Below, one piece after another: positions 3,582 through 30,186 of a DNA stretch of 30,186 nt. The notes below the pieces were generated by a model. It did not search any database. It had not been told where the DNA came from and was given only the letters and a program-made list of their open reading frames with translations. Both the position numbers and the translations under genes were made by a program. This DNA is from Nannochloropsis salina CCMP1776 (Eukaryota; Sar; Eustigmatophyceae; Eustigmatales; Monodopsidaceae): NCBI GenBank assembly GCA_004565275.1, contig SDOX01000142.1, forward strand, positions 10,692 to 40,877, written 5' to 3'. The first letter of the stretch is position 1. The number at the start of each line of letters is the position of its first letter.

Positions 3582-5803
3582 ATGAGGGAATCCAGGGCGC
3601 TAGCGGGATCAAGCAGCCGACGGAGCGAGTACGGAGCCCTCTCGTTAGGGTGAGAAGTGAGGGAAGGAGGGAGGGAGGGAGGAAAGGGGGGAAAGAGGGA
3701 GGGAGGGAAGGAGGGAAGATAGGAGGGAGGGAGGGAGGGAGGGAGGGAGGAAGAGAGGGAGTCCCATGGGATGTGGAAAGGGAAGAAGCCTGGTTCTAGG
3801 CAGTCCGGTCACCTTGCATCCCCTCTCTCCTCCCCACCTCCTCCCCAGGACCCCGCCGTCCCCCCCCTCCGTCGTCATCAACGAGGTGGAGCGCGCCCGT
3901 AGGTCTCGGCGGAAGGTACGGGGGAGGATCGGGTGGGATTGAAGTCTCCTTAAATTGGGACGAGTCCTGGCACGGCGGGATCTCGCTGAAGAGGGAGGGT
4001 GCGTGGGACGGGCGCGAGGGCGTACCTCGGCGTTCCGAAGGGGGTGTCCGGAGTTTCCTTCCAGAAGCTTCCAGAAGCTTCCACAGGCCCTCGGAAACCT
4101 TCATTCACCCCTTCGCTATCCTTCCTGCCAGGGCTGTCCCTGCTGGCGCCCGCCCTCCCCCTGGACTTTGTACGGCTTCGTCCTCCTGGTGGGGCTGGCG
4201 GCGGCGGGGGAGCGGGTCGCCTTCAAGCTCGCCATCGACCAGATGGAGCCCTTTCGGGTCTTTCTCGCCCTCGTCGTCAACCTTGGCCTCGTCCTCGTCT
4301 CGGGAAGCATCGTGCTCTACAAGAAGGCCCGGCGTCCCTCCGGTGCGTTCCCCCCTCCCTCCCGCCCTCCCTCCCTCCCTCCCGCCCTCATCCTCACCCT
4401 CCCTCCCTCCCGCCCTCCCGCTCCCCCTCCCCAGAGATCACTCCCGCCATGCACCGCTTCCCCCGCCGCTCCATCCTCCTGATCGCCCTTCTCGACACGC
4501 TCTCCCTGGTCGTGATGGTGGTGGCGGGCGCCTCCACCCCCCCCGTCCTCACTGTCCTCTTCATGCAGGCCACCCTCCCTTTCCTCCTCCTCCTCTCCTC
4601 CTGCCCGCCTTCCTTCCCTACCTGCTTTGCCACTGCCAAGCGCCGGGAACGGAAGCGCTTTCACCGCGCGCACTGGCAGGGGGGGGGGTTGATCCTCCTA
4701 GGCATTGGTGTCGCGATGGCCCCCACCGTGCACGTTGCCTTTTGGCACCGACAGACTGACATTGGTGGGGAGGGAGGGCGGGAGGAGGGAGGAAGGGAGG
4801 GTCTGGTCTTGTGCAAGTCCATCGTCCGATAGGCGGCAGACAGACACACAGACATGGACACAACATATATGTATAGATGTATATGTATCTGTTTAGCAAT
4901 TTATGATTTTCCCCACACATACACACACACATCCAGGCATCAACACTCTCGCCTACGTGCTCTGCTGCCTGCCCGCCGCTGTCTCCCAACTGGCGAAGGA
5001 ACAAGCCATCATCGAGTTCGCGCAACCTATGAATTTTTACTACTTGAATCTCCTCCTGGGAATATACCAGTTCGTCCTCCTGCTGGTGCTGTCCCCCCTG
5101 ACGTACCGGCTCCAGGTGGGGAGGGAGGGAGGGAGGGAGGGAGGGAGAGGGGACGAAACCAGTCAGGAAATCTCGTTGGGTCTTGCCTCGTCACGTCGGT
5201 GCGGACCTAGAGCCTGAGGCCTTTTCCATCCTATTTCCAAACCCCTCCCACTGTCTGGAAACTGGGAGGCTGAGGCCTTTTCCCTCATGCTTCCCATTGT
5301 CTCCCACTCTTTGTGGACCGGGAGGCAGCCTCTGATTCCCCTGTGTCTCCCCCCCACTCCAGGGGCTGGGAATGGGCTGGGACCCGTACGGGGCCACCGA
5401 TCTGGGCACGGCGGTCTCGGACCTGTGTTTGTGCCTCTTCACCGCCCGCAGCATTCCTCCAGGGCGCTATCCGATCGAGCCACAGTGTCGGTACGCCTCT
5501 TTAGCCACGTTTTTGTACATACTCTGCACCCTGCTGGTCACCTTTGCGGTCAACGGCGTGCTTGCCTCGGGCACCCCTCAAATGCTCTATCGGACCATCA
5601 ATGGGTCGGTTGCACTGGCTTTTCTGGCCCTGGCCGTGTATTCCGTGAATAAGTGGGCCTGGGTTTCCTCCTATGCTCTCAATGTCTTCGATTTCATCGG
5701 CCTCTTTTTGGTCCTGGCAGGCATGGAGTGGTACCACAGTCAGCCCGAGCCCGACACGGAGATGCTCACGCATTTTTCGCTGGAGGACGGGGAATTCTTC
5801 TAG
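3582..5803 (+). CDS. CRT-like (chloroquine-resistance-transporter family) membrane transporter
   Basis: Member of the drug/metabolite transporter superfamily; relatives include the Plasmodium digestive-vacuole transporter PfCRT and plant plastid CLT thiol transporters. Substrate and compartment cannot be read here. Six exons: 3582-3649, 3849-3915, 4132-4342, 4435-4764, 4937-5115 and 5363-5803. All junctions are GT-AG and in phase, giving 431 aa (PfCRT is 424). A short basic N-terminus (about 45 aa, ERARRSRRK) precedes TM1 (LYGFVLLVGLAAAGERVAFK). About ten hydrophobic segments follow, including SILLIALLDTLSLVVMVVAG, a helix before KEQAIIEF and a long C-terminal hydrophobic block ending in an acidic tail (LEDGEFF). 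Introns after 3649, 4764 and 5115 begin with GGGA tracts, and intron 4343-4434 ends in CCCT. No plastid presequence is evident, so a vacuolar or endomembrane location is as likely as plastid. Confidence 0.83.
3659..3760 (+). repeat. GGGA-rich tract in the first intron of the CRT-like gene
   Basis: About 100 nt of GGGA/GGAA units starting within 15 nt of the 5' splice site at 3650. The purine strand is the sense strand and contains many GGGAGGGAGGGAGGG segments, which are textbook G-quadruplex motifs with single-nucleotide loops. The same intron ends in a pyrimidine stretch before CCCCAG. Confidence 0.85.
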
Positions 5804-5865
5804 AAAGTCGAGAAGACCTTCGAGGACGCCGCTCCTCCGGCTATGCGCGGATAATACATACAAAG

Positions 5866-5871
5866 AATAAA
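5866..5871 (+). terminator. Poly(A) signal of the CRT-like gene
   Basis: AATAAA 62 nt after the stop codon at 5801-5803, followed by a T/G-containing stretch. Confidence 0.6.
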
Positions 5872-6504
5872 GTTTGTGGACTGGAAAAAGGCGGATGCAC
5901 AGGGCTCTGAAGGAGCCTCCCATTTTTTCTTCGCTTACACCCCCGTCACGTTATGTTTTGAAATCTCCTTTGTAAAATCAAACTTTAAGCGTTATTAATT
6001 TTTCCGCCGTAGACGTACCTCAATGTGTCCATCGCGGTCAGCGTGTGGAGGGCAAACATATAGCATTCAATGACACTCCTTTTTTCATTCCAAAATTTAA
6101 AGAAAACCTGTATCTTTTGGTTTGTTCGCATTTTAAAATACGAGAGAGACACATCCACGATCGTCAAGGCAATCGAAGTCACACGGAAAGTGATTTGTTT
6201 GCCTCCTCAGGCCCTTTCCTCTTTCACGGCGATGCCAGATCCTCATACCCGGATTTAACGGCAGTTCAGGAACGGCTGAGCAGCGCCTTTTGTAGATAAT
6301 TTTGTTGATATGCATGCATAATTTGGGGAAAATTATGGGTGCTTCAGAGGCAGCAGGCAATAAAATCTCTCAACCAAACGTAAACACACTGGACCCTTGC
6401 AAGACTTTTGCGGATGTCGGTTCCGCCGTTTTTACGCGATAAGACCCACCCGATTCATGTGCTTCGCGTTGCTCCCCTTTTCATTTCCATGTCCGGGCAG
6501 GAAA
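5872..6504. other. Intergenic: CRT-like 3' flank and PheRS alpha upstream region
   Basis: More AT-rich than its surroundings, with no tetranucleotide tracts and no recognisable gene. The PheRS frame is open back to an ATG at 6397, but a CAG directly before GAAAATG at 6501 could be the acceptor of a 5' leader intron. A second AATAAA at 6359-6364 may be chance. Confidence 0.5.
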
Positions 6505-10009: not shown

Positions 10010-13000
10010 TCACCCCCCCGTCCAACCCTCCCCCAGCACCTTACTTGTCCTCCCCCCCCCCGCCGACGCCTCCCGGTATTTCTTCACCAATTGCTCCTGG
10101 ATATCCCTGGTCACGGGGAGGTGCGTCTTGTACTCCATCGTGAACTCGCCTGAGGGAGTGGTGGTTGTGGGGGAAAAGAGAGGAAAAATGGGGCGGGAGA
10201 GGCCCCGGGCGGATTGAGCGGGTTTGGGGATGGAAATTGCCCAACGCTCACGTTTCAAAAGGGCAAAGCTGTTACATAATATACTCTTCCTGGGGCATCA
10301 TGACACGTATGGAGGCGAACGCACAAGGCGGGAAGGGGGGGAGGACGTTCCACACTCCTTCCTATTCCCTCTTTTTCAACGATGAACTTCCAAATCAATC
10401 ACGAACCTTTCCCTTGGGTAATACTTCGCAAGTCGGTGGAATACCCAAACATCTGGGCGAGGGGGGCGTCGGCCTTGATGCAAACCGTCGCGCCATCCTC
10501 GCTCACATCGTTGCTCTGAGAAAGGGAAGGGAAGGGGGGGAGGAGGGGAGGAGGGAAGGGATTCGGGTCAGGCCGGTCTTCTCGCGCAGTCTCGGCTGTA
10601 CTACTACGGCGGGTCCGGTCAAGTTTCTTGCCTGAATGACGGCCATGCGTCGATTGAGCTGGCCCATAATGTTGCCCTGGAATTCCGTGGGGGAGGTCAC
10701 CTGAAAGGAGTCGCAGGGAGGGAGGGAGGGAGGGAGGGAGGGAAGGGAGGGGAAGGGAACGAGGATACATGAATAGACATATATATAATTGCAAACAGAC
10801 GTTATGTGTCAACACCTCTTTGCTATTTCCACCACTTCCCACTCTCCCTTCTCCCTCCCTCCTTCCCGCCCTCCCTCCTTCCCACCCTCCCTCCTTCCCG
10901 CCCTCCCTCCCTCCCCCTTACCTGTCAACGGCCCCTTCTCCATCGCGTCCCGGGCGCCCTTCTCACAGCTGGGAATGTACTCGGGGGGGATGTTGGTCCC
11001 CACCACCTTGTTCACAAACTCGAAGCCCAGCCCGCCCTCCTGCCCGCCCTCCTTCCCGTCCTCCCCCTCGCCCTCCTCCAATGGCTCCACGTAGCCGACG
11101 ACCCGGGCGTACTGACCCTGGCCTCCGGATTGCTTCTTGTGGAGGTAGTTGAAGTTCGCTTTTTTTCGGATCGTTTCTCGGTAATTTACGTTCGGGTTGC
11201 CGACGCTGCAGTCCACGTTGTACTCGCGCTTGAGACGCTCCACGTAGATCTGACGGTGGCAGGGAGGGAGGGAGGGAGGGAGGGAGGGAGGGAGGGACGA
11301 AGCAGAGGCCAATCAGTTCCAATGACAAATGTGCCTCCGGAAAACAAACGGATGACACCAGCTTCCCCTCCCCTCAATTCCCCCCCCTAAAAGCGGGATA
11401 ATCAGACAAGGACGGGGACGGGAAGCGGCGGATCAAGACGCCAAGGGCAACGAGGACGGCCGCAAAGCCCGCGAGGGACCGCGACGTGAACTCAGGAGCC
11501 AATCCCGGAGGCGATGGCCCCAGCGCGAGGAAGACACAGCCCTCAAAGCGGCCTCTTACCTCCAAATGGAGCTCGCCCATCCCGCTAATAACGGTCTCTT
11601 TGGTCTTCTCGTTGAAGGCGACTTGGAGGGTGGGGTCCTCCTTGCAGAAGCGTTGCAGGGCCTGAGGGAGGGAGGGAGGGAGGGAGGGAGGAGGGAGGGA
11701 GGGAGGGAGGGCGTGAGAGGGGGATGGCAAGGCTAACAGGACGCACAGAAACGAAGAACGTCCTGGCAGTATCTTTGAAACACGTCAAGCGCCAAGGAAG
11801 AAAAGAGACAATGCCAGAAATGGCGCGAAGAAAACGAGGCCGGAACGGGCATGGAGGAGACGCGACGTAAGGAGTGGAAGAGGAGGAGAAAGGAAAGGGG
11901 AAGGCAAAGAACAGAAGCTCTTTCCCCACCCACCTCCCAACAGACACCATGAACGTGAGCAGACATGAGAAAGGGGGGCCACGCCAGGGTTGGAAACGAA
12001 CAAAGAAACAAAGACGTCTGCGTAAAACCTCCACGAATAGAGCGAAAAGGCGACCAAATCACCTTGGAAAAATTGGCAAACATGGCCGACTGCTTGGGCT
12101 TCACCGCCAAAGAGATGACGGGCGCGGGCACGAACATGCTGGTCAACGCGTACTTGACCGTGCCGTCCGTGAAGGAATCCATTGAGGAACAATCCACCCC
12201 GAACATGGCGCACACGTCTCCAGCGCTGATGCTCTCGATTTCTTCCAGCTGCGGGAGGGAGGTGGGAAGGGAGGGAGGGAGGGAGGGAGGGAGGGAGGGG
12301 AGGGAGGGAGGGAGGGAGGGAGGGAGGGCGTGACCGTCCTGGAGGATCATGTCCGTGTCCATCGTCATCCATGCCGTCTTCCTGCACGTGAGGCTTTCCG
12401 ACGCCTGCTGCGTTCTTCCTCCTTTCCCTCTCTCCACCCATTCTTGCCCCTCCTCCGCCCCCTCCTACCCTCCCTCTACCCCTCCCTCCCGTGCCAGCCA
12501 CAGGCACCACCCAACCTTCTGTCCCACGAAGTCCACCGCCATCTGAGACGGGCACCATGTCGTCGAGATTCATCACCCTAACCCTAACCCTATTCCGAAC
12601 CCCAACCTCAACCCTAATTCTAACCCTAACCCTAACCCTACCTCGTTCGAATGCATCCGGACCAGGCGCGGGACTTTCACTTTCTTGTCGTTCCGCATGT
12701 TGAAGAGCCAGCCGCCTCGCTTAATCGTCCCTTGATAAACCCGCATGTACGTCAACTGCCCGAATTTTCCCTCCTCCAACTTAAATGCGAGGGCGACTGC
12801 CGGAAGATTCTCCTTGCAAGGGACAGGGACACGGGCTTCGTCTGGAGAAAGGGAGGGAGCAAGGGAGGGAGGGAGGGAGGGAGGGAGGGAGGGAGGGAGG
12901 GGAGGAAGAATGACGGTCAGGGGGATCGGGGCTTTGCCTCGATGGAGATGGTAAGGAGAAGAAGATGGAAGGGAAAGAAGGGAAAAGAATTCAAATGGTG

Positions 13001-16000: not shown

Positions 16001-19000
16001 TCAATTCGACGCATCCGCCCTCCTACCCATACCGACACTACCCTCCCCCCTCCTCACCATCGACTGCCCCGGAGTTCTGGAAGGTTTCCGGGCGGAGAGA
16101 GCGGACGCCGGCAGCGAGAAAGAGGAGAGCAGCGCCGTCACATTCTCTAAAGCCCTTTGGAGCCCCCTGAGCATCAGCTCCTCTTCCTCCGCACGCCCTT
16201 CCTTGCCCTCTTTCTCGTCCAGAGCTAACAACCGCTTGGCCGCCGCCAGCGACTCCCACACCCGGAGGCAGGGAGGGGGGGAGGGCGTAGGGGAGGGAGG
16301 GGGGTTGGAGGGGATGGAAAGCACCTGCCCTCGCAGGAGCATGGCGGTAGATTTCTCACTGTGGTGGAGAAGGGACCAAAGAGCGACGGTGGCTGGAAAT
16401 CGGATTTGAATTTTTGAATGCGTCAACGCGTCCGTTACCAGAAACGTTAGCAGGAGGGGAGACGACAAGACGCTCGCCTTCCCTCCCGCCCCAGGCCCGC
16501 GTAGGAAGGAGAGGTTGCGAAGGAGATAGCATATCTGAGCCATCAGCTCCTCCACCTCCCCCTCCCTCCCGCCTTCCCCCCCGCCCTCCGTCCCTCCCTC
16601 CCGGACGAACAAAATCACATCTTCCAACGTGGAGGGGACGAGGGCGGGAGGGAGGTGCCGAACGAGGAGCTGCTGTCCTTCCGCGCTTAAGGTGATGTTG
16701 ACCAGGAGCTTTAAGAGGCCCAAAATTCGGATCCAGCCCTCCACGGAGAGCTCCGAAGGACGTCGGCGCCGGTGGGAGGGAGGCGGGGTGAGGAGGAGGG
16801 AGGGGAGGAGGGAGGTGAGGGAGGAGGCAAGGAAGGAGGGGCAGGAGGGGGAGGGAAGGAGGAGGAGGTGGCGGCCGCCGGGGAGGAGGGAGAGGGAGCG
16901 GAGGAGGGAGAGGAGCGGGAGTGCGAGGGAGGGGGGAGAGCGGGACGGAGGGCGAGGTGAAGAAGGGACGGGAAGAAGGAGGGGAAGGAGGCCGCCGCCT
17001 GAAGAAGATTTTGTTTGGCAGGGTCATGGAAGGCCAGGAGGTTGCAGAGGGAGGAGAGGAGGACGGCGAGGAGGGAGGGGGGGAGAAGGGCCGGAGGGCG
17101 GGGGGGAGGAGGGAGGGAGGGAGGGAAGGAGGCCGCGGGGCTGGTCGAAGTGGAGGGAGAGGGCGAAGGGCCACAAGTGAAGAAGGAGGAGGAGGGGGAG
17201 GAGGGGGAGGAGGAGGAGGAGGAGGAGGAAACGCTATTGACGAGGGCGAGAAGGAAGGAGAGCACGTCGTCGAGGAGATCCTTCGTCTTCTGATCTTGCT
17301 CCTCCTGCATGTGAGGGGTGAGGGAATAGGGAGACAGGGTCTTGGCCCGCCCTCCCTCCCGGCCTCCCTCCCGCCCTCCGCGTTGGAGGACGGGCACGAG
17401 ACACTCCATCGCCACCGCGGTGAGGAGGGGAAGGAAGGAGGGGGGGAGGAAGGAGAGGAGGAGCCGAAGGAGGAGGAGGGAGTCTTGGAGAAGCTTGTCG
17501 TCTCGACGGGTGAGTGGCGGGGCAGAAAAAATGCGCGAAAGGGCCGAAAACCAGTCCGGTCGGGCCAGGAGGGAGGGAGGGAGGGAGGGAGGGAGGGAGG
17601 GAGGGAAGGCGAAGGAGGGCGTTGCAGGAGGCGATGGAGGGCCTGGGAGAAGGAACGGTGAGAGGTGGCCGTGTGAAGGTCGTGTAGGAGGGAAGGGAGG
17701 AGGAGGGACGGGGCGTTGAAGCAGACCAGGGGAGGGAGGGAGGGAGGGAGGGAGGGCGGGCAGGCGGCGGCGAAGGCAGCGTCCCACAGGGGAAGGAGGG
17801 TCTCAAGGAGGTGAAGGAGGGTATTCCCGGTAGGGAGGGAGGGGGGGAGGGAGGGAGGGAGGGCATAGACGGGGAGGAGGCGGAAAGGGCTAGAGAGGGA
17901 AGAAGCAGGAGGGAGGGAGGGGAAGTGGAAGGCGCGAAGGAGGAAGGCCATGATGGGGAGGGAGGGGGAGGCGGGCGGGGAGGGAGGGGAGGAAGAGGGA
18001 GGAGGCATGAAGAAGGTCAGAACCTTCTCCCTGTCCGCAGCGCCAAAACCTCCCCGCTGACGAACGATGACCTCCTCGGGCGGGAGATTTCCGACCTCCT
18101 CCCTCCCTCCCTCCCTTCCTCCCTCCCGCCCGCCCTCCCTCCCACCCTCCTGCCCCCCCGCCCACCAGGGAAGGCGGGCATGGAAGAGGAAGGGGACAAG
18201 GGCGAGCTTGAGGGAGCGACGGAGGGGGGGGGAGGGGTGGAAGAGGTAGGGGAGGAAGGGACGGAGGTGCCGAAGGAGGAAGGGAAGGGAGAGCTTCTCA
18301 GGGGACCACAAGGAGCTCCAGGCCAAGCTGAGGAGGAGCTCCACGCCCGCTTCTTCGAGGAACGAGGGGGGGGAAGGCGGGGGGAGGGCGAGGGGGAAGG
18401 CGGGGGGAGGGCGAGGGGGAGGCAGCGACGAGGAGGGAGGCGGCGGCGGCGGCCACGTGTTCGAGCAAGGAGGAGGAAGGGAGGGAGGGCGGGAGGGAGG
18501 GCGGGGAGGGAGGGGTGGGACGTGTCCTCCTTCGAGCTCGAAGTGTTTCGCTTCCAGGTGATGAGGAGGGAAGACAGATCCTGGGCAGCCAGCTGTCGTT
18601 CCGTGGGACTTAAGGAGGCGGAGGGATCCCGGACAAGCTGGCAGAGCGCCAGGACCCGCTTCTCCTCCCTTCCTCCCTCAATCCCTCCTTCCTTCCTTCC
18701 CTCCTTGCCACGAGACGCTAGACGAGCCCAGACTGCCGCAAGGGGAGGCCATCCTCCCTCCCTCCCTCCCTCTCTCCCTCCCCCTCCCTCCCTCCCTCCC
18801 TCGCCTCCTGCTGCCACCCTCCCTCTCTCGCTCCCTCCCCGGGCACCGGGGCCATCGGCCCATTGAAGCCGCGATCCATCCTGGCTCCTCTTTTTTGAAT
18901 TCAAACTCAATCGGGCATTCAAACGTCGGAGGCCTTCCTGTCGCTGCTCTCGCTGCGACTGGTCCTTCCGCCTTCCTCCCGCGAGGGAGGGAGGGAGGGA

Positions 19001-21435
19001 GGCAGGGAGGGAGGGAGGCAGGGAGGCAGGGAGGGAAGAGGAGGGAAAGCTCTCTCCGATGCCTTCCGAGGCCAGCAAGAAGCGTCCCTGCAGGTCCCGG
19101 AGGAGGCGAAGGAGGAAGGGAAGGAGGGCGGGAGGGAGGTCGGGGCGGAGGGCGTCTTCTCGGTTCTTCTGGGAGGAGTCCAAGCAAGCAGCCATTCCGA
19201 CGGCCAGAAGGACGCGCTCCTGCACCTCGCCCTCCCCCTCGCCCTCGCCCTCGCCCTCCCCCTTGCCCTTCCCCTCCACCTCTTCCACCTTGCTTGCACC
19301 CACTCTTCCTGCCATGCGACGGGGTCGACCCTCTTCTTTCCCGCCCTCCCCCCCGCCCTCCTTATCCCCCCCAAACACCTTTCGAAACCGCTCCACCCAC
19401 CAATTCCAGAGCCCGTCCTCCGCCCCGCCCTCCCTCCCGTCCTCCCTCCCGCCTTCCCTCCCGCCTTCCTCCCTTCCTTTCCAGGCGGCTCGGCATCCGG
19501 GCTCGGACAGAAGGAGGGTCAGGAGGGCGAGCGCCCGCAGGTAGAGGCCTCCCCGCCCTCCCTCCCGCCCTCCCTCCCTCCCTCCTTCCCCTCCTCGACG
19601 GACGATCAGGGACAAATTTTCCACATCCCGGAGGACCAATGATCTGGGCAAGAAGGCCTGGCTCCGCCCTCCCTCCCTCCCCCCTCCCCCCCTCCCTCCT
19701 CCTCTTCCTCTTCCAGCACCAGACCGTAGACAGCTGTCGCCAGCTGACAGGCCACCGTTAGCACCTGAGAAACTACTGGTGCGTAGGGAGGGAGGGAAGG
19801 AGGGGCGGAGGACGCAGACGCCGCAGGTACCCACACCCAGTCCTCCTCCTTCCCTTCCTCCCTCCCTTCCTCCCTCCCTTCCTCCCTCCCTTCCTCTCTT
19901 TCTTCCTCGAACTCCCACGCCCAAGCCCCCAAACAACTTCCCACCGCCTTCACCAGACCTGACTCCCCCACCAAGCGCTGGGCCTCCCTCTTCCCCGCCC
20001 TCCCCCCCTCCTTCCCGCCAGGGGGGGGGGAGAGGAGGAGGAGGAGGAGTCGCATGCCCTCGATCTGTGCAGCTGCAGCCAAGTCGCGCCCTCCCTCCCG
20101 CGTCCACGAAGCCGCCACGACGCTCCCTCCCCAAGCTTTCCCTTCCCTCCCCCCTGCCCTCCCTCCTTTTCCCTGCTCTGCCCAGGGGGAGGAAGGCGGG
20201 AGGGAGGGCGGGGGGGAGGGCAAGTGGAGGGCTTCGGTGGCAGCTTGCGCATAGTTGGCTTTCAAATGATGGGACTGGTGGAGGAAGCGGACCAGATCCC
20301 GAGGGAGGCCTTGCTCCCACACCAAGCGGCGCACAAGCCCGCCCTCAAGCCCGCCCTCAAGCCCGCCCTCCCTCCCGCCCTCCCTCCCTGGTGGCCGGGA
20401 ACAAGGCAGGACAAGCGCTACCACGCATTCCAAGGCAGCAGCCAACCTCGGCCATCCCCGCCCCTCGCCCTCCCTCCCGCCCTCCCTCCCGCCTTCCCGC
20501 GCTCCCTTCCTGACAGATCCCGGTAGGCGTAGGCGGAGGGGAGGTCGAGGGGGAGGAAGGGAGGAAGAATCTTCTAAAAGTTCCCGCCGGAAGAACCGAA
20601 GGAGGTGGAGCTGGCTCCCCCGGTCCGTAACGGTCCCGAAGCGAATTTGAAATTCAAACAACCGTTTCTGGTCCCGCCGGGATAGAGGGACGGTGGGGAA
20701 AGTGAAGCCCGAGAAGAGGAGCAAGGTGGTGTCGAAGGCGGTTGGCGGACCATCTCCGCCGTGGGCCTCCGTCGCCCCCGGTGAAGGGGAGGTGGAGGGA
20801 GGGGGGGAGGGCGGGGAGGTGGAGGGAGGGGGGGAGGGCGGGGAGGACAAGGAAAGCGACGTGGGAACGAACGGCACGGCCGCCGGCTGGCCGTAACTGT
20901 CGGGACTCTGGATGCCGCCGTCTTTCCGGCGGCGGCTGCCCGTCGTGCTACTACTGCTGGAATAACCTCTGCCGTACCCACCGCCGCCCCGGCGGCTCTT
21001 CCCGTCGCTGCTGTCATGGCTCCACGAGCGACTGTCCGAGCTTTTCTCCTCGTCACCTTCCGAAGACGGCGTGGCCAAGGGTACCAAGGACGGTGCCTGC
21101 CTCGACAAGCCCTCAACCGCCAAGGTCCTTCGGATCTCCTCCGCCAGCGCCTCGACGTCTCTCGCCATCCCGTCCTCCCTCGGGACCTCCTCCACGGCCT
21201 CCCTCGTTTCTTCTTCCTCGCTCATGATCCCACCGGTAGGATTGCACCAAATGCGGGGCTGAGACGCGTAGAACGCCTGGTCAAAGCGGAATCTTACTTC
21301 CCAAGCCGCGTCCCTGAAGGCGATGGGAGGGGGTAGGAGACCCAGGTGTCCAGGCAGCGGCTGTAGGACTGAGGGAGAGGAAAGGTAAAGGAGGAGGGAA
21401 ATGAGGGCATCAATGAGGAGTGGGGCTGCTTCCAT
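16001..21435 (-). CDS. RTTN: Rotatin-like armadillo-repeat centriole/basal-body protein
   Basis: Rotatin (Drosophila Ana3) is a large armadillo protein needed for centriole elongation and basal bodies. Five overlapping open segments on the minus strand carry alpha-helical ARM-like sequence: 21435 to about 19690, about 19700-18550, about 18344-17600, about 17600-16800 and about 16750-16001. Best matches to rotatin are at the ends. Near the N-terminus, FSGFTFPTVPLSRRDQKRLF resembles human STFPWLPLTTTDRHVL. At the C-terminus, ILGLLKLLVNITLSAEGQQL, CYLLRNLSFLRGPGAGGKAS, IRFPATVALWSLLHHSEKST and LQRALENVTALLSS match human rotatin in order to its last residues. Much of the rest is Glu-Gly-Gly-Arg or Ser-Leu-Pro-Pro low complexity from the tetranucleotide repeat. 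The frame changes four times in or near such tracts. I cannot tell introns from indels, so exon limits are not given. ATG at 21435 is the first usable start; relatives have some 60-90 more residues upstream. About 1500 aa against 2226 in human. Confidence 0.72.
18373..18418 (-). repeat. Perfect 23-bp tandem duplication in the rotatin-like gene
   Basis: Two identical 23-bp copies (starts 18373 and 18396). 23 is not a multiple of 3, so it shifts any frame crossing it. It lies where the reading frame of the gene appears to change. Confidence 0.8.
20790..20843 (-). repeat. Perfect 27-bp tandem duplication in the rotatin-like gene
   Basis: Two identical 27-bp copies encoding the nine-residue unit STSPPSPPP twice in the open N-terminal segment. 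The length keeps frame. Confidence 0.85.
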
Positions 21436-23523
21436 GGCATCAGGTCGTGCAAGTCAGACATAATACTAAGAGGAACGGGCTTCGTGAACCAAGAGATAGC
21501 GAGTAATCAAGGCGGGGGAAAGTGAGCTTCCCATGAATGAACGTCCGATCGCAATAGTGGGCGCTCAAAATGGGAGATGTATATTGCCAGACGTATTTTG
21601 CCGTCATAAGTGGAATTTAGCGTGCATGCTGTGCTAAAGACACACTCCGCTCTCGGAGGGCAGGCGCCTCGTATCACGCTTCGCGCGGCAAAAAACACGG
21701 ATAAATTGTACACAGTGGTCGACAAAGACATCAACCATGATTTCAAAGAATATTCATGGATGGAAATACTGCTGTGAGGACAGAAGGGAGCGTGACTGAG
21801 CATTTTAGGGTGAAGGGTGGGGGGTAAAGAACATCGAGTAGAAGGAGTAGAAAAGCCGCTTGTTCTTTTGGAGAGTTAGGCAACACAATGCAACTCAACA
21901 GAAACAACCTTGCCATCCTGCATCAAACGTTGCAAAACATTCGCCCAGTCATACTAAACCAAAAGGCATACCATCACACCTTATGGAAAGGTAAAGTGGA
22001 AGGGAACCCAACAGAAACTGTACGTGAATACTCCCGCCTTTTTTTCTCAAAAAAAAGCGTCCGATCTTCGATCCTTCTATAGTTTTATAAAATAAGGCAT
22101 GCCCGGACCAGAATTAACAAGTCGGTCTTCGGAGGGTGAGAAGTGGGGGCGTGGTGTGTATGGGATACAAATGTCAGGAGGAAAGCATAAATTGATTGTT
22201 GCCTTTCAGGGGTCACGGCTGGGGCTTGACATGCGGGCTTGAAGCGACGCTCACAGAATTGTCCTTTCTTACATACTGCAGATCCACGTCATGCCACGAC
22301 GTCAATAATTATGTGTGATTGAATACATACATATGATTTTCCATGCATTAGAAAATACTCGGATGCCGGGTTGGCTCATTAAGCTCACTAAATGGAACAA
22401 AGGAGCTGGTGCCGTCGTGATAAAAACACTCGTGCATGCCTCTGTCTCGCGTCTTTCACTTTTAACTCAGCAACTTCATTCAGAAGAATTAAATAAGGCG
22501 ATGGTGGCGGATGAATCCGTGATTGTCGTATAGGTCGCCGTAAACGTGTACTAGACTGCTACTCGGCGTCATTATCTGTAATGACAGTAAAGTGCTGAAA
22601 CTATGGGGGGCAAGGATCTTGTCATCTTCATTCGCTTATCAGTGAGAAACAGCCTCGTCGCCTGGTTTGTTGCATGCCAGTCCCTCACGATCACCTATCA
22701 CAGAGTGGAGATGCGTGATATCGTGGTGTGTCTCATTCGAAACTTGCAACTCTGCATAATGCCCAGAGACAATTCTTCCATTGTGTTGCGTCGGGCCAAA
22801 CGTATAAGCACCCATCCGAAGCAAGTAAGGCAAGTAGTATGCCATGGTTTTTTATTTAAGACCGTAGAACAAAGTCTCGTTAAAAAGAATCATGGACAAA
22901 TTCTGAGTCGCGCTATGGTTGTGAAAGGGGCGGGCGCAGGACTAGGACTTCTCCTTATAGGGCTTGCAGGCTCTTCTAAACCCCATAGCCATAAGATCAC
23001 AATCCTTTGAGCACCTTGACGTCAAAAATCATTTAAAACAAGTAATTCCACACATTTACTGTGATTTAACCAGTTTTTAGGAGGGAGTTTGCTTTAACTT
23101 TGATCGACAAGGGTGCGAGAAACATCAGCATTTTGAAGGAGTGTAACGGCTAGAACTTTCAAATTAACGGCGCAACCGCTCAACGGGCAAGCCGCGGGAT
23201 GCAGTCACCACACAAGTGAGATGTGATGTCGCGTACTTAGCAGGATGTTTAGACCTGTTTACCATACTTATAAACGCCAGAATGGCAGGGAAGCTCAGTA
23301 CACTGCCCCCCGATTCGTGTATTAAATTGTCTCCCCTTGGCGTGCCTAGTAACAAGGATTGCTCAAGTCACGGTGCTCTTTAGTCATACTTGTCCACGTA
23401 CATGCTTTAAAACACCATCCCTCTAAATAACTATACTTAAAGGTCATAGATGAAACCTTCGACATTTTTGTGCATTCTTTCGTTGGCCTGGGTAGCACGG
23501 CGTAACTAAGCAGGCTATAGCCG
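21436..23523. other. 2.1-kb divergent intergenic region, rotatin-like and FUSC-like genes
   Basis: AT-rich and free of tetranucleotide tracts, unlike its neighbours. Reading frames present (for example 22603-23010 plus, 135 codons) have no motif and atypical composition. Contains a palindromic TGACGTCA. A missing 5' exon of the rotatin-like gene could lie here, but I could not find one. Confidence 0.5.
23017..23024. promoter_or_regulatory. Palindromic TGACGTCA (bZIP/CRE-type) site
   Basis: Perfect octamer about 500 nt upstream of the FUSC-like ATG. bZIP factors, including the light-sensing aureochromes of stramenopiles, recognise TGACGT cores. One octamer in 2 kb could be chance. Confidence 0.3.
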
Positions 23524-26500
23524 ATGAAATCCGAAGAGAACACTCCATCGGAGCCCACTCCTTCCTCGTCCGCCCTCACGAACCCTCCTATGCCCCGTCA
23601 CACGCCCTATCGTCCATCTTTGGATCGGCTGCCGCAAATACGCGAGAGCACTGAAAGCGATAAGGAAGCTGATATCGGACCAGACAGCGCCCCGTATAAA
23701 GACGAGCTGACGGATACTGCCACTTGGCCCCCCCCGCCTTCGGGTTCCGGCGACTCAGCTCCCTTCCATCCACATCCCTCCCTATCCTCCCCCACTGAAG
23801 TGAGGGAAGCAAACGGGGAATCGGGAAACGACGAGGCGCACGGCAATGCCCAGGCGGACGGGAACAACCCGAGGCGTCCGCCAACCTCTTCTCAGTCCCC
23901 AGCACGTATCAGTATCCACGTCCCGCCCACCTCGACAGGAGGAGAGCATCCCACATCAATAAACAACGACCGCAGCCATGTTGAAAGCACCCAGGAAAGC
24001 TCACCCTGCCGTCACCATGCAGGGCATCGGCGCCCCGTGGGCAAACGGAGATCCTCCCGGTCCAAGCGGCCAGCGTGGCATCCCATGTCCTTCTTCCAGC
24101 GTCGATCTGCCCGACGCCGGGCCACCGCTCCAGTAAAGGCTGCACAGGGCCCTTCGCCCTTGCTCGGCGCGGCTCTGATGCATTTCCACCGCAAACTCCG
24201 ACTCGGATTCCGGACGGCGTTGGCCATCGCCCTCGCCACGACCACCTCCCAATTCTTTTGGAACTGGGCCCATATCCTCACCTGGTTCAGCGTGACCCTG
24301 GTCGTCTCGGGGACGCACGAGAGCCTGGGGCGGACCTTGCGAACGGCCTTCGACTTCTGGAAAGGCTTTACAGTGGTGCTTCCCTTGGTGTACTTGATCC
24401 GCCCCAATCGCGACAGCACGCCCTTGACCATCACCGGTCTCTTCTTCTCCGTGGCGTTCCTCATCTGGCTCCCGGGCATTTCCGACCCGGGAAAACGCAT
24501 GGCTACGATTTTTTTGACGATCGTCGTCATTTACTGCGTCCTCGACCCCGCGCTGCTGTACAACCACATGGTCCGAGACGTGTGTTTCACGCTCCTTTTC
24601 GCCAACGCCTTTTCCATCATCGCCCTCCTCCTCCCCTTCCCTTCCCCCTCCTTGGCCCTTCTCGACGTCCGAGTCAAGCTCGGGACGGTCCGGCACCGGC
24701 TGGGTTCGATTCTCCGCGGGTGCAACGAGGCTTTCAGTTTAGGCGAGGAAGTGCACTACAGCATGCTCGAACAGCTTTTGCAGGAGACAAGTGCGACCGT
24801 CGCGGACATCAAGGAACAAATTCCTTTCGTGAAGTGGGAAGCTGTCTTGTTGCGCCTGCCCGTGTCGATGCCGGATCAACTCGAAAGCTTCCTCACCACG
24901 ATCGAGGCGCAGCTCGAGCTGTTTCGGGGCATGCGCTTATCCCTTCGGCGGATGAGCAACAATGCGACTCATCAGGTAGGCACACCTTTTTGTTCTTGGA
25001 AAGATCTTTTTTGGGGAGGTGATCTCATCTGGTTTCGGGAGCCGGGGGGGTGCTGTGAAGCTGGGTAGGTTGTGTTGTCTCTCTTTTCTTTTTTCAATCT
25101 CTTTATCCCCACTTCAGGTGTCATTTTTTTCTTTTCTATTTCCAATTTCTTGACCCCCAATCAAGTACGTGACCTTACCATATGTCGTCCGCTCGATGCC
25201 AATCATTCTTGTCCCTGCGCCTGGTGTTAAGGAGGTGCTGGTGGCTACCGATTGATGTCCGCCGCAGACTGTGGTGTCACACTATCTAATGCCCACCCAT
25301 CCATTTGTATCATTCCAAGCTCATTTATTTGTATCATTGTAGGCCCCAGTATCTTATCTTTTCCCCCCTCTCCAACCCTATAACCGCGTGAAACTCCTCC
25401 CTTTCCATTGCCTCGTTGCGCCCGGATTGTCCCCGACATTTTCTTCTTGTTTTCGGATTTTTTCTATCCTTACAGGAATTTCTCAGGTACCTTCAGGAGC
25501 CCCTGAGCCAGGTCGTCAAAGCCAGCGTGGCCGTCTCTGATGCCGCCGCCCTCCATATCGAAGCCGAGCTGGTCCTCTTTCCTTCCCGCCCTCCCCCTCG
25601 CCCTCCATCTGCTCACGCACAGGACACGACCGCCCATTCCTCCCAAGCCCATTCTCTTCCATCGCCCACGTCCATCCTCCCCCCCGGTAAGCCCAGCCAG
25701 GATGCGGCACACCCACAACCCTCTCCATCTCCCCACCCTCGCGCACCCCTTTCCGACCTGGCGGTGGAGGAGTGCAGGGAGCTCGAAGAAAGCCTCCGCC
25801 ACGTCGATCGTGCATGGGCCACTCTGATGAGCGCTTTTGTCCAAGCCCGTTTGGCGATTTTTTACGGCTTGAAACCCGCGATGGAGTCGGCCTCTGGCCT
25901 GTTTACCCGGCAAGAACGGCATTCCTCCATGATGCTCGCGACCGTGTCAGGCACCCACGTCTCGGCGTTGCCAGTGCCCGCGGGAATGGGGCAAGAGGGA
26001 GGGCGGGAGGGAGGGCGGGAGGGAGGGCGGGAGGGAGGGCGGGAGGGAGGGCGGGAACGAGGAGGGAGTGGGCAAAGTTTCCTGTCTCTTAGCTTGAGCG
26101 GGGCGCAGAGTCGAGGCAAGCACAGCCGCGGGAGCAGTCTGGGAAGGGATTACCCGGCTTTCACTTCCGGGTATGAAGCCGGAGGCGCCCGTCCCGGTCG
26201 AAGTCCATCCTCTTCCCGTTCGCGCGCTTTTTCGCAGGGGAAAGTGTCCTATTCGCCCCCGCCCACCCTGCAAGTCTTGCACACGACCGAGGGCTTGGAG
26301 CTGATCCGGCGCCGGGCGAGTGGCCAGGCGGTCTATGACGCCTTTACCCACGAATACACCAAACTGGGGTATTTCAACGTCCTCCCCCGCAACACATTCC
26401 TCTTGGAGCTGGGCAACTACGTGAACACCTTTCCCGCCCTGGTGGCTGCCTGTCACGCGGAGGGCGTGCCGCCCTCCTTCTCGACCTCGTCCTCCCCCCC

Positions 26501-28292
26501 GCCCTCCACCAACGGGCGAACCTGGTCAACGCGAGCCCTCACGCTTCTTCAACGATTGCGTGTGATGGTTTACGACCCCATCGTCATACGCCTTGGTCCC
26601 CAAGGGCAGCATGGGACCGGTCTCAGGGGAAAGCGAGGCGAGGAAGGGGAGAGCAGTCCGGCCGCAGAAAAGGCAGGGGGTGCACGTGATGACCCCAGGC
26701 GGGGAGGATTACGCAACTCACAGGAGGCCACGATGGAGGGGACCGAGGGCGGGGAACGGCGACATGGAGACGGGAATGACGCGAGCGAGGAAAAGGCGCC
26801 TGCCCCCGCCACCTCGTCCTCCATCCCTTCCTCCCCCAGCACCTCGCCTCGCCCGGCCTTGCCTTCCCTCCCCTCGCCCACACCTACCCCTTGTTCACCC
26901 ACCACCAGTCCTCCCTCCGCCCCTCTCTCCCTCCCTCCCTTCACCCGCGGCTTGGAAATGGCCCGGCAACCCTTGAAAGTCGCCTTGGCCTACGTCCTGG
27001 TCACCCTGACCATGCTCATCCTCACTGGTCCCCGCACCCCCTGGGGACTGATCGCCGTCTGCCAGTCCCTCTCCTCTCATCCGGGTAGCAGTTTCAAGGC
27101 CGGGCTCCAACGGATCCAAGGCACGGTATTGGGAGGGATGTTCGGGATCGTGGTTTTGAATTGGCTGCAATGGGACAGCAAGCTGGCAGTCGTGCTTTCC
27201 TTGACCGGGTGGGTGTTCTTCTGTGCCTTCAACCGCCTCTCCCCTCTCTACGGGGAGGTCGCGCTCATGGCGGCGGTCACTGCCCCCATCATCCTCATGG
27301 GGCCGATATTGGGCGAAGCTGGGGCGATGATACGGATCCAGCAGACGATTTTGGGTTCTTTTATTTATGTCTTCGTCGACAATGTCTTTTGGCCGGTCCG
27401 GGCCAAATTGGACCTTCGTCGGGAGTTGTTGACGTCCCTCGGGCTTTTTCGGGACCTGTGGGGACGGACATTTTCCATCTTTCTCCAAAAGACCGACGAC
27501 CCGGTCCACGCCATTCAAACTGCCCAAAGAGTGCACGCGGCCTTGACCGCGTCCTGTGCGATGCAGGAGACCTATATTACCCTGGCCGTGGACGAGCCCG
27601 AGCTATGGCACAAACCTTTCCATGCGCAAGCCTACCGGAGAGTCGCCAAAGCCCTGGCACGGGTCTCCCTCTTCATGGCCATGCTGATTCGGGCTTCTCA
27701 GAATTTTCCTCTGGAAATTTCCGAACGGGACTGGGCCCTGCTCACGTCCATCCAAGAGGCGGTGCAAGAGCTGGAAAGAATGACAGCACATGCCCTCGAC
27801 CAGGCCTGGGAGGCCGTGGCGCGAATGACGGAGCGGGAAGAATGGAGGGAGGAGGAGGAGGGAGAGGAAGATGAAACGGAGACGGAGGGGAAGGGGCGGA
27901 GCTCGGCGGTGATGCCGCTAGGGGATAGAGGAGACTTGCCCCCGCCACAGCCAAGAGAGGGACGGGCCTCCGGCCATGGAGCCCACAGGGAGAGCTCGGG
28001 CCATCGACCCACACGCTCTGCCACCCTACCGCCCGACACGGTCCCGGCCTTGGCCTTGCTGCAGCTGGGGGAGGCCTACGTGAAAATTCAAGACTGGGTG
28101 GACGGGTATTTCGAGGAACACATCAAAGGGAACTGGGCGAACGACCAGCTCGTCCTGGTCTCGGCGGATTTGATCCTCTCTTTGAACGGGATGATCTTCG
28201 CGGTGGAGGCCTTGGGCCAGGGTTTGTTGGGGGTGGGACACGCCTTGCGAGAGTTGGTGGAACGGGAGAAAGGCAACTACTACATGCTGTAG
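23524..28292 (+). CDS. Large FUSC / aromatic-acid-exporter-like membrane protein
   Basis: Resembles the fusaric acid resistance/AaeB/Bre4 family of putative efflux transporters; substrate unknown. Two exons, 23524-24975 and 25476-28292, joined GT-AG in phase 0 give 1422 aa. Residues 1 to about 215 are a Ser/Pro/Asp-rich, probably disordered cytoplasmic tail. Membrane module 1 (about 225-385) has about six helices, including FRTALAIALATTTSQFFWNW and MATIFLTIVVIYCVLDPALL. A long soluble stretch with acidic and Pro-rich parts follows. It holds an EGGR array (658-677). Module 2 (about 983-1130) starts PLKVALAYVLVTLTMLILTG and has the FUSC-like pattern of helices ending FIYVFVDNVFWPVRAKLDLR. A helical cytoplasmic tail follows. 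Two modules flanking soluble helices match the duplicated architecture of fungal and bacterial relatives. The ATG at 23524 is the first in frame. AATAAA follows the stop by 40 nt. Confidence 0.75.
25995..26054 (+). repeat. Five perfect 12-bp units encoding (EGGR)5 in the FUSC-like exon
   Basis: GAGGGAGGGCGG five times without a mismatch, in frame as Glu-Gly-Gly-Arg. The 12-nt period, with one C per unit, differs from the pure 4-nt GGGA period of the intronic tracts. Confidence 0.95.
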
Positions 28293-28337: not shown

Positions 28338-29355
28338 GCCTAGCGAGGCATGACACCAGATAGAGAGCCTGAATGGGCGCCGACACGGTGCCTGGCATGG
28401 GTGAGAGTGAAAATTATAGGGTGGAATTGAAAATTTACCAACAATGTCTTGCTCATGATCGAATTCGCGGTTGCCTGGGAAGCACAGGTGCTTCCACTTA
28501 ACTGTCCCTTTTACTACTTTTTCGTCGTGAAACAATTCTATACGGAATGACAGAGCATTTGTCATCGCTCTTACCTTGAATACATGTGGCGCTGTATTCA
28601 CATGCAAACGTAAAATATGCCAATAACCATGGCTTCCTGTAGTGCGACATGGAAGAGGTAGGAACACAGCCTTCATGACGCCCCTCAGCTTCAATATGCA
28701 CGCTTGCAATGCTGTCTGACACTCTTCCCACTTTTTTTTTTAAAATCATACCTCTCTGAGTGTCTCATTGGGTAGGTGTGCTAGCTTTCTTATTCAAGCA
28801 TTGCGTGTGTAGTACTAATATGGGCCAGGCGACAAGGACTAGCACCACATACCTGTGAGCTGTGAGCTCTCTTGTTATACACCGTCCATGAAATGACGCA
28901 ACCGTTTTTTTGCATGTACAAACATGATGCAATGTGACTTGGAAAAAGAAACTGCGTGTCGTAGATATTTTGCGGTAGGTCGTAGTTGTACGTATGCCAA
29001 AATGATTCCTTCCCACTGCCGCCCTCTTCAAGAGTTTATCAAACATGGGTCTCCACCAAGGGTGATATCTCCTTGAAAATCCCGCTCTCGTAGTTTTATG
29101 CTTGTCATCTTTTCTTTTTCTACCCATAGCCGGCGAGGAGCTCGTCGGACCTATCTTGAATTACGTATGTTCTTATGGATTTTACCATTCATCTAACCTC
29201 CTCCACAGAGCGCTTAGACCTTTCACATTTCCCGGCCGTACTTAGCCAATAGGATGGAGGCGAAGCATGGCCTTTTTCGATTGACACGTTCTGTAAAGCT
29301 GATTGTCCTCCTTGTGAGCGTTTGGCACCTTTCTTTCTTTTTCCCCTCTACGTGT
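28338..29355. other. Intergenic between FUSC-like gene and HPRT
   Basis: AT-rich, no tetranucleotide tract. A 120-codon minus-strand frame (29127-28765) has no recognisable domain. Pyrimidine-rich from about 29300, just before the HPRT reading frame. No TATA box seen. Confidence 0.5.
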
Positions 29356-30186
29356 ATGGCTTCTGCATTCTATCTCCACCCTACCCTCCCCACCGCCTTC
29401 ATCCGCTGTCCAAGCTTTCCATCGTCCAACACGTCGCCTAAGCCCAAATGCTTCCCTTTCGCACTCTGTTTCTCCTCGGCCTCTTCACTACCTACCCCTC
29501 CCTCCGTCTTCTCACCTCCCATCGTCATCGCCGACGCGCAACCCCTCTACCCCTTGAGCGCCTTCGCCCTCCCTCACCAGTTTCTGGCTGCAGGGGAACT
29601 CGAGGCCGTGCTGTTGCCGTCCGGGCTCATCGAAGATCGGATCGATAAGATGGCGCAAGACCTCCTCGACGACCTTTTTTCCGCGCCATTTCCACCTCCG
29701 GGAGGATTGCTTCCCGTGTGCGAGCTCCACCTCCTGTGCGTCCTAAAAGGCGCCAGCCGTTTCTTCCACGCCCTCCTGGCCAGCCTGCGTCGTCGAGCCC
29801 AGGCCCAACGGTTGCCGTTACAGATTCAAATTGAATTTATCACGGTCCGGAGCTACGCAGGGATGCAGAGCACGGGCACGGTGGACGTCAGCGGGTGTGT
29901 CCTCGACAACCTCCAAGGCCGGAACGTGGTGCTGGTGGAGGACATGATCGACACGGTACCTGCCCTCCCTCCCTCCCTCCCTCCTTTCTTTTCTATCTTC
30001 TTTTTTCTTCGCCCCGGTCTCAACACTGATTGGGACTCCTCTCCTCCCTCTCTCTCCTCTTTCCTTCTCCCCTGCCTTCCTCCCTCCTCCCCTCCCTCCC
30101 GCCCTCCCTTCCTCCCTCCTCAAGGGCAACACCTTGCGGAAACTCGTCCCCCTCCTTCAATCCCATCGTCTGTCCTCCCTCCGAAT
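29356..30186 (+). CDS. HPRT1: Hypoxanthine-guanine phosphoribosyltransferase, 5' part
   Basis: Purine salvage: joins hypoxanthine or guanine to PRPP, giving IMP or GMP. Exon 1 is 29356-29955 (200 codons, donor GTACCT); exon 2 starts at 30125 after CAAG and runs off the window. Conserved parts in order: PPIVIADAQPLYPLSAFALP (human [21 protein letters not shown]), SGLIEDRIDKMAQDLL, LCVLKGASRFFHALL, IEFITVRSYAGMQSTGTVDV and the PRPP-binding loop VVLVEDMIDT-GNT split by the intron, then LRKLVPLLQSH. The only in-frame ATG before the core is at 29356, giving about 52 extra N-terminal residues (MASAFYLHPTLPTAF..., Ser/Pro/Phe-rich). They may be a targeting sequence, or the true start may lie in an unseen exon. 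The intron of 169 nt is CCCT-rich toward its acceptor. Confidence 0.92.
   Translation, partial: MASAFYLHPTLPTAFIRCPSFPSSNTSPKPKCFPFALCFSSASSLPTPPSVFSPPIVIADAQPLYPLSAFALPHQFLAAGELEAVLLPSGLIEDRIDKMAQDLLDDLFSAPFPPPGGLLPVCELHLLCVLKGASRFFHALLASLRRRAQAQRLPLQIQIEFITVRSYAGMQSTGTVDVSGCVLDNLQGRNVVLVEDMIDTVPALPPSLPPFFSIFFFLRPGLNTDWDSSPPSLSSFLLPCLPPSSPPSRPPFLPPQGQHLAETRPPPSIPSSVLPPN

Follow-up and report, generated by a model that had tools for sequence, protein, structure and literature searches.

Frame changes along a long putative gene of Nannochloropsis salina CCMP1776 are probably small length errors in low-complexity stretches of the assembly

The stretch of DNA analysed here (the window) comprises 30,186 nucleotides of Nannochloropsis salina CCMP1776 and corresponds to positions 10692-40877 of contig C27 in a genome set of 26,503,672 bases and 103 contigs. 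On its minus strand lies a putative single protein-coding gene of ~1,810 codons at 16001..21435, which opens with an ATG at 21435-21433 and closes with a TGA at 16003-16001. The gene region is G/C-rich and packed with GGGA/CCCT tracts, and the predicted product is leucine-rich and carries many REGG or PSLP low-complexity inserts. The window has a tract density of 83 nt per kb, one other piece of the genome (L044) has 79, and 16 further pieces have 0-39. On the plus strand of the window, a single long ORF at 25392-28292 has FUSC_2/FUSC domains over the cut-off, and an ORF that leaves the window (29218-30186) has a phosphoribosyltransferase domain over the cut-off.

Several other repeats were seen in passing. 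The telomere repeat TTAGGG, which is typical of this genus, stands at several contig ends, and some 11 imperfect ACCCTA units (78% matches) form an interstitial array at 12575-12640 of the window. Many GGGA tracts are found in the first 5.5 kb of contig C1. Within the gene, at 20646-20658, there is a near-palindrome, TTTGAATTTCAAA, with 7 copies in the genome versus 0 for its reversed control, and similar AT-rich words occur near 18.9 and 16.42 kb.

Read from stop to stop, the gene falls into five overlapping minus-strand ORFs in successive frames (19606-21453, 18017-20344, 16356-18677, 16711-17802 and 16001-17023). A codon-phase model, whose training set was 32 long ORFs from 16 other genome pieces (a 33rd, in L021, is mostly N and was left out), places the coding signal in turn at codon first-base positions of 0, 1, 2, 0 and 1 modulo 3. 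The five open segments listed in the initial annotation are thus confirmed both by the ORFs and by an independent model. Combined with a path search, the model delimits coding segment 1 (frame 0) at 19678..21435, segment 2 (frame 1) at 18472..19677, segment 3 (frame 2) at 17606..18410, segment 4 (frame 0) at 16939..17605 and segment 5 (frame 1), which ends in the TGA, at 16001..16938. A short alternative segment of ~20 codons in frame 0, at 18411..18471, lies between segments 2 and 3 when that change is taken in two steps, a reading that beats a single jump by 6.42 nats. An earlier remark held that an alternative frame near 18465 weakens the third step of the ladder; the short segment turns that step into two.

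The fitted path comprises 1,812 codons and has a terminal stop only, whereas over the gene the other two minus-strand frames contain 20 and 28 stops and the plus-strand frames 19, 25 and 36. Because jumps were allowed when the path was fitted, the absence of internal stops is support for one gene and not proof of it. Coding signal is present in all segments and runs on to near each switch, and directly upstream of the ATG at 21435 the model finds no consistent coding signal. In leave-one-out trials with 40-codon windows, phase calls were right in 148 of 151 cases at a margin of at least 6, in 155/175 at margins of 4-6, in 164/221 at 2-4 and in 135/250 below 2; the short segment at 18411..18471 has a margin in the first class but only about half the length of such a window. 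The deposited sequence does contain these frame changes.

The places of the switches were defined as all positions within 2 nats of the best one. Switch 1 (19640..19693) contains runs of G7 and G6, and switch 2 (18357..18513), which may comprise one step or two (2a and 2b), contains C6, C6 and C8 runs together with a CCCT-rich stretch. Switch 3 (17500..17642) holds a 38-nt pure CCCT tract at 17605-17568, the longest of the gene's eight pure tetranucleotide tracts of at least 16 nt and the only one at a switch, but no homopolymer of 6 or more. Switch 4 (16754..16960) has a C6 run at 16936-16931. This last switch had been placed around 16.8 kb; it does exist, but its best place is 16938, within a wide interval. 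The earlier description of the switches as lying near tetranucleotide tracts likewise holds for the one at 17.6 kb and not for the others, which hold G/C runs of 6-8. Low-complexity elements number 34 in the gene, with 6 inside the switch intervals, at least one in each, and 28 outside, and when four random intervals of equal lengths were drawn, all of them held such an element in 7.7% of 20,000 trials.

The initial annotation also stressed that the frame always changed by the same step. With jump costs of 8, 12, 15 and 20, the path search does return four jumps, all in the direction described there; with costs of 3, 4, 5 and 6 it returns five, and the bases to be dropped are then 2, 1, 1, 2 and 2 modulo 3. 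Four non-zero shifts share one sign with a chance of 2 x (1/2)^4 = 1/8 in any case; for this reason, and because the extra segment breaks it, the uniform ladder was rejected as evidence. The case for a special regularity of the frame ladder is weak.

The name of rotatin (RTTN, Drosophila Ana3) had been attached to this gene, and it remains a lead from that first reading, which the searches of Pfam and of PDB sequences did not support. The product resembles rotatin in being long, leucine-rich and helical-looking by eye, and the genome encodes a SAS-6 N-terminal domain, so that at least this part of a centriole is present. Pfam gave no match over the cut-off for any of its five ORFs or for 10 sub-segments. 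Among the sub-segments the sub-threshold matches were HEAT_EZ (PF13513), at E = 0.013 in one sub-segment within coding segment 2, and TetR, at E = 0.16. RTTN_N (PF14726) had no match in the genome, nor in any of 14 control genomes, which makes the control uninformative. When two segments were searched against PDB sequences, the best hits, at E-values of 0.44 and 0.031, were unrelated proteins. Structure models of two segments, each built from a single sequence, were helical but too poor for use (pLDDT 44 and 40). Within the genome, the gene matched only itself at full length among the matches listed, a part of 341, which revealed no second copy or haplotype; the other listed self-matches were short, up to about 210 bp, and apparently tract matches. 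A 56-aa stretch scanned against viral contigs and prokaryote genome contigs gave no confirmed relative.

Our preferred reading, to which we assign a probability of about 0.58, is that this is one long gene whose frame breaks stem from small length errors that a 454-era assembly carries in its low-complexity stretches. The deposited sequence would carry a few such errors in G/C homopolymers and CCCT/GGGA tracts, introduced during the assembly of 454 and early Illumina reads, and each of them would alter the reading frame as it appears. Tracts of period 4 encode one peptide, free of stops, in all three frames (G-R-E-G for GGGA and P-S-L-P for CCCT), so a break is silent within the tract and visible only downstream of it. 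We infer that it is the assembly, and not the organism, that contains the errors. It is quite possible that one or two of the switches are nevertheless missed introns or true indels.

The sequencing platform fits this reading. The published description gives 454 Titanium and Illumina GAII data assembled with Newbler, Velvet and Phrap, a result of 27.6 Mbp in 194 scaffolds with an N50 of 828,788 bp, and 254 million transcriptomic reads (PMC6953503); the set analysed here, at 26.5 Mb and 103 contigs, differs from it and is a subset or another version. In a pyrosequencing test, 6-mers were correctly genotyped in 72.1% of cases on average, with over- and undercalls beyond four bases (PMC5822529). 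The breaks in this gene resemble 454 indels in falling within intervals that hold G/C runs or a tetranucleotide tract, and a few similar breaks at G runs occur in other genes of the same assembly. They are unlike such indels in that switch 3 has a CCCT tract and lacks a long homopolymer, and in that the other switches have runs of no more than 6-8 bases, a length that nearly always stays in frame elsewhere in the assembly. Three explanations had been offered at the outset, namely under-calling in the assembly, repeat contraction in a decaying gene and unusual splicing. Under-calling is the best supported of these, by the hybrid origin of the assembly and the other G-run breaks, though in a modified form; decay and splicing stand as its rivals. 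In particular, the idea that one 4-bp unit was lost at each tract fits the 17.6 kb switch only.

Frame switches elsewhere in the assembly provide the comparison. Outside the window, 44 rows between strong neighbouring coding segments were collected and, after removal of 4 duplicates from overlapping loci, 40 distinct switches remained, for which a direct join was compared with any GT-AG intron of 35-500 nt at costs of 8 and 4 that we chose ourselves. The direct join scored better in 6 of the 40, by margins of 0.5 to 3.6 nats. Two of the six are in L021; the other four, which were inspected, all lie at G-rich runs. Two of the four belong to the same gene, on the minus strand of L018, which breaks twice with no good intron, at 4079-4067 (G13) and at 2680-2672 (G9). 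The remaining breaks are in L009, at G8/G10, and in L016, at a stretch with two G5 runs. One further switch, in L023, was also inspected; there an intron scored better and no long run was seen. Three of the four switches of the present gene are absent from this survey, apparently because antisense segments at 16915-18425 won the overlap filter, and for these the path search and the analysis of switch intervals were used instead.

In the DNA outside the window, homopolymers as a class are no more prone to frame breaks than other coding positions. A frame change was found at 3 of 45 distinct homopolymer elements (runs of at least 6 with confident flanks), compared with 158 of 1,970 control coding positions, introns included, and there is thus no general excess. 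The other 42 keep their frame, as do 29 of the 30 runs of 6-7; with stricter flanks, the frame is kept at 8 of 9 runs of 8 or more and changed at one. For elements made of tetranucleotides only, the frame is kept in 2 of 3. Two to three errors at runs of 6-8 bases in one gene exceed this average rate, unless tract-dense regions are worse than the rest. Homopolymers alone are insufficient at the average error rate, and some of the breaks would call for a higher rate where tracts are dense, for real indels or for introns.

Other tract-dense DNA was also viewed. A kinesin gene that lies beside it in L044 stays in one frame across three tracts, apart from a brief segment near 3660 in which a different frame has the higher score; this counts against the assembly reading. 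Separately, on the plus strand of L044, the coding signal shifts from frame 0 to frame 1 among tracts at 5650-5900, through an intron or a break. The fetched DNA contains three N runs, two of which adjoin tracts and speak for the assembly reading. In L022, exactly 100 N (4168-4267) sit inside a coding-scored stretch, bordered by a CCCT-rich tract and, at the opposite end, by a long GAG repeat, and the sole intron of that coding stretch is away from the N run; in L044, the N run follows a GGGA tract and extends as far as the DNA was fetched. In the third case, at the start of L021, no tract borders the end that is visible. These N runs may mark stretches that were withheld rather than gaps in the assembly. 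A first path search over whole sequences, which allowed introns and frame jumps, bridged intergenic DNA and was dropped as a control; only the extent of the one coding stretch in L022 was taken from it.

A first alternative is that the indels are real, the gene being in decay or its repeat lengths having drifted in this culture, with a truncated protein as the outcome. Such tetranucleotide tracts should be mutable, as microsatellites are, and the coincidence of the longest pure CCCT tract with switch 3, together with a tract density above that of the 16 other genome pieces, speaks for such a history. The homopolymers that mostly keep their frame elsewhere point the same way, since they weaken the artefact reading. 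On the other hand, a fitted path free of internal stops and a coding signal that persists in every segment argue against real indels, as do the many low-complexity elements that lie outside the switch intervals. We consider real indels possible but unlikely as an account of the gene.

Introns with weak or unusual splice sites could also explain one or more switches, above all switches 1 and 2, and real introns are common in this genome. Two chaperonin genes, inspected by eye, supplied reference introns; on a generic matrix, scores in one of these genes range from 1.2 to 4.9 for four donors and from 3.8 to 5.3 for four acceptors. By comparison, a path through the present gene that uses introns only requires donors of -0.4, -2.4, -4.6 and -4.9, and the median GT on the window's minus strand scores -3.5. 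The initial annotation saw no good GT-AG pairs at the switches, which is mostly right, as switches 3 and 4 have no usable pair, but weak candidates exist at the other two. At switch 1, a GT-AG pair of 191 nt combines a fair acceptor (2.8) with a donor of -0.4 and scores 74.9 versus 76.9 for the direct join, but such an intron would excise a stretch with coding signal (rows 19780-19720). The candidate at switch 2 is a pair of 104 nt (donor -2.4, acceptor 1.8), and a combined search run without site thresholds takes it (123.8 versus 122.2 without it). All frame-joining pairs at switch 3 have a summed site score of -4.2 or lower, and at switch 4 the top five candidates, all AT-AC or GC-AG, score 1.1 or less, the AT-AC pairs being scored on the GT-AG matrix. 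It also counts against introns here that 34 of the 40 distinct switches outside the window score better with an intron or have an intron option only. Splicing is accordingly a doubtful explanation for these switches.

Finally, ribosomal or transcriptional slippage at homopolymers could restore one product from the genome as deposited, and in-frame XXXYYYZ heptamers at switches 1, 2b and 4, with a direction of shift at switches 1 and 4 (and at most switches) like that of programmed -1 ribosomal frameshifting, speak for such recoding; yet switches 2a and 3 have no heptamer, switch 2b needs the opposite direction, the steps of the five-jump reading are not uniform, composition alone yields a heptamer wherever six G or C in a row stand in the right phase, and four or five serial slips would probably leave very little full-length product, which makes recoding highly improbable. 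Equally far-fetched is its more specific form, in which the deposited letters are right and one centriole-type protein is made by serial slippage at G/C runs and at frame-neutral GGGA/CCCT tracts; if it were true, tract length in this tract-dense region would switch the output between truncated and full-length products.

The frame changes of this gene are thus most likely due to letters miscounted in G/C-rich stretches by older sequencing, rather than to unusual biology. If they are an artefact of this kind, their relevance is mainly to annotation, where genes in the tract-dense parts of this assembly may have been split or labelled as pseudogenes. A period-4 tract also conceals a frame break and, because all three of its frames encode the same peptide, a reader who relies on ORFs sees a smooth ladder of overlapping ORFs.
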